From NCBI GenBank assembly GCA_026391515.1, contig JAPLEC010000427.1:1-34556 (forward strand): a DNA stretch of 34,556 bases. The letters run 5' to 3'. Shown here piece after piece: positions 1 through 21,612 of this stretch. The notes under the pieces were generated by a model. The model did no database searches and was not told the DNA's origin. It worked only from the letters and a program-made list of their open reading frames with translations. The first letter of the stretch is position 1; the number at the start of each line of letters is the position of its first letter. Both the position numbers and the translations under genes were made by a program. The DNA is from Bacteroidia bacterium. Lineage in GTDB: Bacteria > Bacteroidota > Bacteroidia > Bacteroidales > VadinHA17.

Positions 1-451
1 CAGTCTGAAGCGGCTGTTTTACCGGCTGACGGAAAATAACTCCGGGAGCTTTTCTTTCAAATGGCATAGTAAACAATTCACCTCCGATTGGTCCTTTCCC
101 GTCAAGCGGTTGCCCGGTAGGAGAGATTACCCTTCCGAGCAATCCATTCCCGACATTGATGGAGGCTATACGTCCAGTACGCTTTACAATGTCTCCCTCG
201 TTGATCTCCTCAGTCGGGCCAAGCAGCACGGCGCCGATACTATCTTCCTCAAGGTTAAGGACGATTGCTTCCATCCCGTTCTCAAATTCAATCAGCTCAT
301 TCGACTCTGCGTTAGAGAGTCCGTAAATACGGGCAATCCCGTCGCCAACCTGAAGTACAGTACCGACTTCTTCCAGTTCGATGCCTGTCTGGATACCCTC
401 AAGCTGCTTGCGGAGAATACTGGTAACTTCCGCTGGTTTAATATTTGCCAT
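1..451 (-). CDS. atpA: F1F0 ATP synthase subunit alpha, N-terminal part (gene runs off the left edge)
   Basis: Minus-strand reading from the CAT at 449-451 gives MANIKPAEVTSILRKQLEGIQTGIELEEVGTVLQVGDGIARIYGLSNAESNELIEFENGMEAIVLNLEEDSIGAVLLG..., the typical alpha-subunit N-terminus; follows atpH. Confidence 0.95.
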   Translation of the reverse strand, partial: MANIKPAEVTSILRKQLEGIQTGIELEEVGTVLQVGDGIARIYGLSNAESNELIEFENGMEAIVLNLEEDSIGAVLLGPTEEINEGDIVKRTGRIASINVGNGLLGRVISPTGQPLDGKGPIGGELFTMPFERKAPGVIFRQPVKQPLQT

Positions 452-567
452 ATTGTTGTTCTTAAAATTTTCTTATGCTATTTATGTATTATAACGATCT
501 CAGTGTATTGCTTTTAAGTTCTTTTTCAATTATCCTGAGTTTGGTCCTTACGCTTGCGTCAATATAA

Positions 568-915
568 TTATCTCGCAGTTGTAAGGACTGATTCCGTAAT
601 ACCCTTATATTCTTTCGTCTCGTGGATAAAAACCCGGGCAATTGCCGGAAGAAAATTCTCCCGGTTGTTTTTCACAACCATTTCAATAAGAGAGAAGGTG
701 ATTATTTCAACGTTTTTTGCCAGAATCTTCTGAAGGACATCAATTTTCTTAGTCGGTCTGATTATCGGGCTTTCAAGAAATTCTTTCATTTCAGGAACTT
801 TACAAATATCTGAAATGAAAATCATGTCCTGATATACCTTATCGAGCAGCTTTTTTTCAAGAGCTGATTCAAAAAGAGCCTTTGAGTATCGTACCGATAT
901 TTTACCGTTGTTCAT
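568..915 (-). pseudogene. atpH: F1F0 ATP synthase subunit delta, apparently truncated or frameshifted (C-terminal tail fragment out of frame at 489-578)
   Basis: MNNGKISVRYSKALFESALEKKLLDKVY... is a delta-subunit N-domain in the expected position between atpF and atpA, but the ORF stops after ...ITESVLTTAR at 115 aa; an out-of-frame LRDNYIDASVRTKLRIIEKELKSNTLRSL* follows. Confidence 0.75.
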
Positions 916-930
916 CAGTCAAACAACCCT

Positions 931-1446
931 TTAGTTTTTATTAATGTTAACGTCCTTAAGATATTTATCAATAAGTTTTTCTTGCTCCTCGGTTTTGCTA
1001 AGCTTTTCACCAAGAACCATTGATGCTATCTCTACTGAAAGACTAGCCACCTGTTCATGGATTTCTGAAAGAGCTTTTGTTTTTTCTCTTTCAATTCCCG
1101 CTTTAGCTTTTTCAACAATTTTTTCAGCTTCTTCAGTTGCTTTTCCTTTTGCTTCAGCAATAAGTTTATCACGCACATTTCTGCCTTCTTTTAGGATAAC
1201 TTCGCGTTCTTCTCTTGCTTTCCGCAAAATAGCCTCATTATCACTCTGAAGTTTTAACATTTCTTCCCGTGCCATTTCAGCAGAAGCGAGTGATCCTTTA
1301 ATCATTTCATCTCTCTGCTTTATTGCAGCAAGAATTGGTTTCCATGCAAATTTTGCAAGCAGGAAGAAAAACAGGGAAAAAATCAATACCGACCAGAAAA
1401 GTGTGCCGATGCCAACAGATGTCAGACTATTACTTGCTAATATCAT
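931..1446 (-). CDS. atpF: F1F0 ATP synthase subunit b
   Basis: N-terminal TM segment, FAWKPILAAIKQRDEMI, and a long charged coiled coil; operon position. Confidence 0.95.
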   Translation of the reverse strand: MILASNSLTSVGIGTLFWSVLIFSLFFFLLAKFAWKPILAAIKQRDEMIKGSLASAEMAREEMLKLQSDNEAILRKAREEREVILKEGRNVRDKLIAEAKGKATEEAEKIVEKAKAGIEREKTKALSEIHEQVASLSVEIASMVLGEKLSKTEEQEKLIDKYLKDVNINKN

Positions 1447-18851: not shown

Positions 18852-18990
18852 CCCCTGGCAATCCGCCAGTTGGCGGATAGCCTGCCCCCTAAAGGGGGCC
18901 TAATTCACATATATTCAGTTAATTATCTTATATTCCTGGATTTAGCCCCCCTTCAGGGGGGCATCCCCGCCTTAGCGGGAAGGGGGGCCA
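18851..18990. repeat. Dispersed GC-rich palindromic intergenic repeats
   Basis: aTCCGCCAgtTGGCGGAt, GCCCCCtaaaGGGGGC, GCCCCCCttcaGGGGGGC, CCCGCcttaGCGGG. Confidence 0.78.
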
Positions 18991-19042
18991 TTAATTTGTA
19001 ACATTTCCCACTTTTATCCGTCTATGCATTGTAAAACGTTTT

Positions 19043-19528
19043 ATGACTGTAAAGGAATATAACAGATCTGTTGAAGAGTATGCCGATTCTGTTTACCGCT
19101 TCGTCCGTGCTGACCTGAAAGACGAAGAGAGGGCAAATGATATCGTGCAGGATAGCTATGAAAAGCTCTGGAGACACGTTGCCGAAATAGAATATGCTGT
19201 TGTAAAATCGTGGTTGTTCTCTACAGCTTATCATGTTATGATCGATATCATCCGAAAGGAGAAAAGGATGACTATCCTTGATGAATCACATGAAAAAGAT
19301 CTGTTATTTGAATCACAGTACTCAGACCTCAATGAGATTCTCCATGCAGCTCTTGACCGTCTTCCGGAACAACAACGATCTGCTGTTCTGCTACGCGATT
19401 ATGAAGGATACAGTTACAAAGAAATCGGAGAAATAACCGGTTTAAGCGAAGCCCAGGTGAAAATAAATATATACAGGGGACGATTAGCCCTAAAAAGCTA
19501 TATATGTAAAATTGAAACAGTTATTTAG
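19043..19528 (+). CDS. ECF-type RNA polymerase sigma factor
   Basis: DLKDEERANDIVQDSYEKLWRHVAEIEYAVVKSWLFSTAYHVMIDIIRKEKR...LPEQQRSAVLLRDYEGYSYKEIGEITGLSEAQVKINIYRGRLALK. Confidence 0.95.
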   Translation: MTVKEYNRSVEEYADSVYRFVRADLKDEERANDIVQDSYEKLWRHVAEIEYAVVKSWLFSTAYHVMIDIIRKEKRMTILDESHEKDLLFESQYSDLNEILHAALDRLPEQQRSAVLLRDYEGYSYKEIGEITGLSEAQVKINIYRGRLALKSYICKIETVI

Positions 19529-19530
19529 TC

Positions 19531-20631
19531 ATGCAACCCGACAGATCAAATTACGAAATATGGCTTATTGACTGGCTTGACGGTAATCTCGATAAGGTTC
19601 AGACTGAGCAGCTTATGGCATTTCTCGATAAAAACCCTGATATAAAAGAAGAAGCCGATATCTTGTCATCATCTTATTTGCTGCCTGAAAAGCAATCGTT
19701 CTTACAAAAAGATAATTTGAAGAAAAATATTGAAGATCTTACTCCTTCACAGCTTGAATATCTTTCTGTTGCATATCTTGAAAACGATCTTTCAGCTGAT
19801 CAGCTGGCAGAATTAAAGCAAAACCTCGATCAAAATAAGGAAGGGAAAAAAGTATTTGATTTAATTCAGAAAATAAAATTTGCGCCGGCTTATTCAGGGT
19901 ACAGATATAAAAACAAGCTTAAAAAACTGACTGCCCGAGAAAAGGTAAAAAGATTATCTGTTATAGGATTAAGTGCAGCGGCAGCAATTGCACTCCTAAT
20001 TTTGAGTTCAGTATTTATTTCACATCAAACAGCTGGAAAATCTGATCTTGTTACAGATAATATTATTACTGACAGCCTGGAAATTCAATCTTCTGTTCCT
20101 GTAATTAGTCCCCCAGAATATCGGTCTGTAGATCTGGTTTCAGAAAAAACCAGTCCGAAGGTTGGCATTAAAACTAATAACATCCTGGCTTCCAATGAAA
20201 TAATTAACGAGATTGTCAAAGCAGATAATCCCGATTCTTCTGTTTTAAAAAGGGAAAATCCTGATTATTTTATTTCCAGAGTTCCTCTTCTTTCAGAAGT
20301 CGACCTGAGAACAGAAATAGAAAATCAGGTTTTAATTGCATCAAATTATCCTATCATAAGACCTTATTATGCTGATGACAGAAGTCGTTTAAGTAAATTT
20401 ATTGCCAGAACATTTCGTGAAAAGCTTCTTAAAGATGAACCAACAAGCGATGCTCCGCTTAAGCCTTATGAAATTGCTAAAGCAGGAATTGACGGATTAA
20501 ATAAACTACTAGGCTGGGAAATGGCTCTTAAAGAATCGAATGATACCTCCGGTGAATTAACATCTGTTTCATTCAGCTCGAGAATTCTTAAGTTCAATGC
20601 ACCTGTGAAAAAAGCTGAATCTTCACAGTAA
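19531..20631 (+). CDS. Putative anti-sigma factor (single-TM, zinc-finger-free)
   Basis: Directly downstream of the ECF sigma; N-terminal WLIDWLDGNLDKVQTEQLMAFLDKNPDIKEEAD, central TM VIGLSAAAAIALLILSSVFI, large C-terminal region. Confidence 0.7.
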   Translation: MQPDRSNYEIWLIDWLDGNLDKVQTEQLMAFLDKNPDIKEEADILSSSYLLPEKQSFLQKDNLKKNIEDLTPSQLEYLSVAYLENDLSADQLAELKQNLDQNKEGKKVFDLIQKIKFAPAYSGYRYKNKLKKLTAREKVKRLSVIGLSAAAAIALLILSSVFISHQTAGKSDLVTDNIITDSLEIQSSVPVISPPEYRSVDLVSEKTSPKVGIKTNNILASNEIINEIVKADNPDSSVLKRENPDYFISRVPLLSEVDLRTEIENQVLIASNYPIIRPYYADDRSRLSKFIARTFREKLLKDEPTSDAPLKPYEIAKAGIDGLNKLLGWEMALKESNDTSGELTSVSFSSRILKFNAPVKKAESSQ

Positions 20632-20684
20632 CTTTTTATCACATCTGATCGTCCTAGCATCAGAAACAACAAAAGAACCATATT

Positions 20685-21473
20685 ATGAAAAAGATTGGAA
20701 CAATATGCTTATTGACATTACTGATAATTCTGGGATACCGTCCTGAAGTATTTGCTGAAAAGAATTACGAACTTTTTTATTGTATTAATTGTCACGATGA
20801 TGATAAAGACAAAGATCATGAACACAGTAGACCTCACTTCAAAGGACATTGGGCAGGTATTGAATTTGGATTTAATAATTATCTGACACCTGATAATAGT
20901 TTTTCATTGCCGGTGAATATGGATTATATGACACTCCATTCGGGTAAATCAAATAATTTAAATCTCAATTTTTATCAGATCAGTGTCGGAATAACAAAGC
21001 ATTTCGGATTTGTAACAGGACTTAGCCTTAACTGGAATAATTACCGGTTCGATGGATATAATAATATTCAAAAAATAGATTCAACCGGTTTTATCGGTAT
21101 GCTTGATACGGGTGATGAGCCTTTGAAAAAGTCAAAATTCGGAACTTTATATTTGGATATGCCTCTTTTACTGGAAATTCAAATACCTGCTGATCATAAC
21201 CGTCTTCACATAGCTGTAGGACCTATTGGTGGAGTCAAACTATTCTCATATTCATCAATAGTTTATAAGAATAAAGACAAGATTAAATCAGGTAATGATT
21301 TCAATCTGAATATGCTTCGTTACGGTATAACAGCACGTATCGGGTGGGAGAATTTTCATGTCTACGGGACATATTATATGACTCCCTTATTCAAGAAAGA
21401 TATGGGACCGGAAGGCCCCGCCGGTGTAAATCTTTATCCATTTGAAATAGGTTTTGCATTCACTATTGACTAA
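20685..21473 (+). CDS. Outer-membrane beta-barrel protein (PorT-like family) with an N-terminal CxxCH and His/Asp-rich segment
   Basis: Signal peptide MKKIGTICLLTLLIILGYRPEVFA; YCINCHDDDKDKDHEHSRPHFKGHWAGIEFGFNNYL; amphipathic strands to C-terminal FEIGFAFTID. Confidence 0.75.
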   Translation: MKKIGTICLLTLLIILGYRPEVFAEKNYELFYCINCHDDDKDKDHEHSRPHFKGHWAGIEFGFNNYLTPDNSFSLPVNMDYMTLHSGKSNNLNLNFYQISVGITKHFGFVTGLSLNWNNYRFDGYNNIQKIDSTGFIGMLDTGDEPLKKSKFGTLYLDMPLLLEIQIPADHNRLHIAVGPIGGVKLFSYSSIVYKNKDKIKSGNDFNLNMLRYGITARIGWENFHVYGTYYMTPLFKKDMGPEGPAGVNLYPFEIGFAFTID

Positions 21474-21557
21474 TAAATTCAATCCGGCTTAATTAGGTAT
21501 AGTCAGGCATGCCTGTCTATACCTTTTTTATTATTCCCCTTGTTTGAAATTTCATTT

Positions 21558-21588
21558 TTTGTATCCTGCCGGCTACTATGTATATTTG
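21558..21588 (+). promoter_or_regulatory. Bacteroidota-type primary promoter upstream of the ThiF/MoeB-like gene
   Basis: TTTG (21558-21561), N19, TATATTTG (21581-21588), matching the TTTG / TAnnTTTG consensus. Confidence 0.5.
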
Positions 21589-21612
21589 TGATATCCAACT
21601 ATAAATCGAGCA

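Follow-up and report, generated by a model that had tools for sequence, protein, structure and literature searches.

The window, that is the whole stretch of DNA analyzed, is a complete contig (C115, 34,556 bp) of a metagenome-derived Bacteroidales bin that consists of 463 contigs and is 92.1 % complete. Near its start, the F-ATPase genes atpB, atpE, atpF, atpH and atpA lie on the minus strand and run toward the contig start. The following features were assigned at the end of this operon:

2 to 451, minus strand: 5' part of atpA, cut by the contig end at position 1, whose frame stays open for 150 codons up to there
489 to 572, minus strand: out-of-frame remnant of the atpH C-terminal tail (DNYIDASVRTKLRIIEKELKSNTLRSL followed by a stop), aligned with the YIDASI/VxxKLRKIxKEL tail of relatives
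about 573 to 574, minus strand: atpH deletion junction, located by alignment, where 125 bp present in all 23 aligned intact copies are absent
568 to 915, minus strand: 5' part of atpH, encoding the N-terminal domain of the F1 delta/OSCP subunit (Pfam PF00213, 75.4 bits); 115 aa, with 114 homologous residues, then a stop
931 to 1446, minus strand: atpF (b subunit), intact (Pfam PF00430, 102.9 bits; full-length match to relatives)

The position of atpH between atpF and atpA on the same strand is that of an F1 delta gene. The 115-aa frame (915 to 568, minus strand) has ITESVLTTAR as its last residues before the stop and matches positions 1-110 of the 172 in the PF00213 (OSCP) profile (75.4 bits against a cut-off of 22.3), which identifies the N-terminal helical domain. 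Residues 1-114 share 60-73 % identity with residues 1-114 of the 180-183-aa delta proteins of relatives. Just downstream, on the same strand and in a different frame, lies the delta tail DNYIDASVRTKLRIIEKELKSN; this frame reads LRDNYIDASVRTKLRIIEKELKSNTLRSL up to its stop, ends at 489, and is 60 % identical to residues 150-179 of one relative's delta (E-value 1.1e-4). An in-frame C-terminal domain with the (V/I)DxxIIGGFxLRxxDxYIDAS region was not found in the window atpH (41 codons and 2 bases are absent and the tail is out of frame), and in a profile search of the whole genome the match extended to OSCP profile position 132 only when stop codons were read through. The original prediction of a delta frame ending at 568 after 115 aa, with the conserved tail following in another frame, was therefore borne out by the frame itself, the Pfam match and the tail alignment. 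Thus, the locus resembles bacterial atpH in the atpB-E-F-H-A order, in N-terminal residues 1-114 and in the C-terminal tail motif of the F-type ATP synthase delta/OSCP subunit (PF00213). It differs in that the C-terminal domain cannot be made.

Each of the 23 alignments of the region with an intact copy from the genus showed a single clean gap of exactly 125 bp, between ACAACTGC(G) and AGATAATTATATTGAC. Because 125 bp correspond to 41 codons plus 2 bases, the reading frame changes, and this change created the stop at 568. The missing part includes the VDxxxxGGFxL segment. An internal deletion of about 40 codons with a frame change and loss of a VDPxxxGGFxL segment had been proposed, and all of this agrees with the alignments; the proposed junction at about 571-582 includes the measured one, but the latter was refined to about 573/574, near one edge of that span. 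Both flanks of the gap are still conserved at the codon level in alignment with relatives, and therefore no decay has taken place since the gap arose.

The breakpoints share only 0-3 bp of microhomology, as judged from the sequences of relatives and not from the intact parent of the window's own lineage, and no repeat able to explain a collapse was observed there. Repeat-mediated (de Bruijn-type) collapse was considered and set aside, as it needs such a repeat; slippage or collapse between direct repeats is therefore unsupported. An imperfect 15-nt inverted repeat (80 % complementary; 544-558 and 574-588) flanks the junction. However, the window contains a repeat of this kind about every 1.2 kb, which is compatible with chance, and the repeat was not used as evidence.

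The delta gene was also searched for in 62 genomes of the genus, including this one. The closest relative found has about 79 % DNA identity over the operon, so that the comparisons are between species. One uninterrupted delta frame of 180-197 aa was found in 58 of the 62 genomes, and the exceptions were this genome, G060 and G076 (both with the copy cut or garbled at a contig end) and G081 (no match). Full-length matches were single in genus members and lay between atpF and atpA in those cases in which the surroundings were aligned. The short form was found in none of the 61 other genomes searched, 58 of which carry a full-length uninterrupted delta, so the possibility raised at the outset, that close relatives share a stable 115-aa delta, was not borne out. 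An exact DNA pattern search for the same junction in other genomes returned no match. A protein search against a collection of genome contigs gave six Bacteroidales relatives (MAGs) with no more than 73 % identity, some of them titled as fen MAGs.

Several genus genomes are interrupted in or beside the delta gene. The two parts of the G060 gene lie on separate contigs, whose ends have an exact 24-bp overlap that was left unjoined, at the TTAV site where the window gene also breaks. The frame of the G076 copy shifts at an NN, no more than 300 bp before its contig ends. The delta match of G008 starts 88 bp from the contig start. As in G060 and G076, delta in the window is interrupted close to or at a contig end, and the TTAV site is common to the window and G060. 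However, the G060 contigs merely stop and the G076 frame change is marked by NN, whereas the window contig runs through a clean deletion.

Longer frames of 271-326 aa in four relatives contain a match to the C-terminal half of the OSCP profile (G032:C67:11962-12162, G066:C105:1638-1838, G067:C119:451-666 and G037:C18:2819-3025). The contigs of G032, G066 and G067 that carry these frames also match atpA DNA. Such frames may belong to an additional F-ATPase in which b and delta are perhaps fused; this type was not found in the present genome.

As had been claimed for the remaining F0F1 genes, c, a, b and the start of alpha are intact, and they gave no sign of relaxed constraint. Comparison with relatives revealed no comparable lesion among the other window genes with a clear syntenic homologue. 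A second comparison pooled the window with C233 and 20 other contigs of the bin (157 near-full-length matches, for the pool and not for the window alone). In this pooled list, atpH was the only forward gene cut short in all relatives compared, and the other entries were read as antisense frames or variable ends. A wider lesion count, of 20 other bin contigs against 20 contigs of G023, had too little overlap to give a base rate. Elsewhere in the window, three ORFs (19043-19528, 19531-20631 and 20685-21473) lie in 18852-21612, between genes that are near neighbours in the relative G023. Judging from their sequences, the first resembles a sigma-70-like factor and the second may be the partner of that factor, anchored in the membrane.

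About 570 bp separate the junction from the contig end, which falls inside atpA. The other atpA piece of the bin (C233:1-173) overlaps window positions 1-173 with 82 % DNA and 93 % protein identity, and the differences are mostly silent; 27 of the 31 mismatches in these 173 bases fall in the first 111 bases, and the last 29 bases are identical. With such DNA identity and mostly silent differences, the two atpA pieces seem to come from different lineages, and the sequence at the end of C115 is common to both. Judging from these sequences, the bin probably mixes two lineages or else C233 is a contaminant. The atpG of the bin comes from C233 only.

In our view, the 125-bp gap probably arose at a tangled contig end through a local error, either of the assembly or in a chimeric read. 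The frame-shifting gap would then most likely be absent from the main genome of the organism. The error would have arisen about 570 bp from a metagenomic contig end, in an operon whose conserved DNA is common to related species that were probably present in the same sample, and the original reads should contain the missing segment. This explanation is supported by the closeness of the junction to the end of a contig that is the whole window and by the C233 conflict at atpA. It is also supported by the breaks in or beside delta in other MAGs of the genus (G060, G076 and G008), by the uninterrupted frame in 58 of 62 genomes and the short form in none, by the undecayed flanks, and by the uncut state of the other comparable window genes. 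The 0-3 bp at the breakpoints count against it, as the gap would then require a chimera, a gap-filling step or reads that bear the junction, and C233 may be a mere contaminant, which does not in itself make C115 wrong. Our confidence goes no further because there is no repeat for a collapse and because a chimeric read, a gap-filling step and a real minority variant, each a possible source of the gap, are indistinguishable here. Of the two options first offered for the locus, a real lesion or an assembly collapse, the deletion with its frameshift is confirmed and the context favours assembly, but a simple repeat collapse is not supported.

A genuine and very recent 125-bp deletion, inactivating delta in this lineage or in part of the population, is the main rival, to which we give tentative weight. 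The clean single junction with almost no microhomology is like that of a random deletion, the remaining comparable genes of the window are intact, and nothing in the sequence demands an artefact. However, none of the 61 other genus genomes shows such a delta loss, the genes for c, a and b and the beginning of alpha are intact and show no sign of relaxed constraint, and the lesion adjoins a contig end near conflicting contigs. The genome also yielded no second delta and no V/A-type ATPase subunit D with which the loss would do no harm.

A stable short delta working in an altered stator, either as the 115-aa protein or with the tail joined to it by a frameshift (about 140 aa), is highly improbable. 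The N-terminal domain is there in full and the tail can be read in an open frame, but the missing region is constant in length in 23 of 23 intact genus copies, which argues that it is needed, and the short form was found in no relative. It is hardly credible that a functional delta lies elsewhere and the window atpH is a decaying duplicate: a copy could be missing from a bin that is 92.1 % complete, but the suggested search for a second atpH, by profile and by protein search up to an E-value of 10, found none in this bin, and full-length delta is single in genus members.

The N-terminal domain of delta binds the N-termini of the alpha subunits at the top of F1, and its C-terminal domain binds the b subunits (b dimer). 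If the deletion were real, the 115-aa product would keep the former domain and lose the latter; F1 would be expected to be unheld by the stator and ATP synthesis to be uncoupled, which a fermenting cell might tolerate for a while. If it were both real and fixed, the rotary ATPase would be conserved except for a broken stator, which would be surprising. We find it very unlikely that a free-living Bacteroidales lineage with an otherwise conserved F1Fo operon lives with a real and stable loss of the C-terminal half of delta and has no normal F1-stator link. The feature is most likely an artefact; failing that, it would be a null mutation of recent origin. We do not regard it as a new form of ATP synthase. 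As an artefact or a recent mutation, its main lesson would be that gene losses deduced from fragmented metagenome bins should be viewed with caution.
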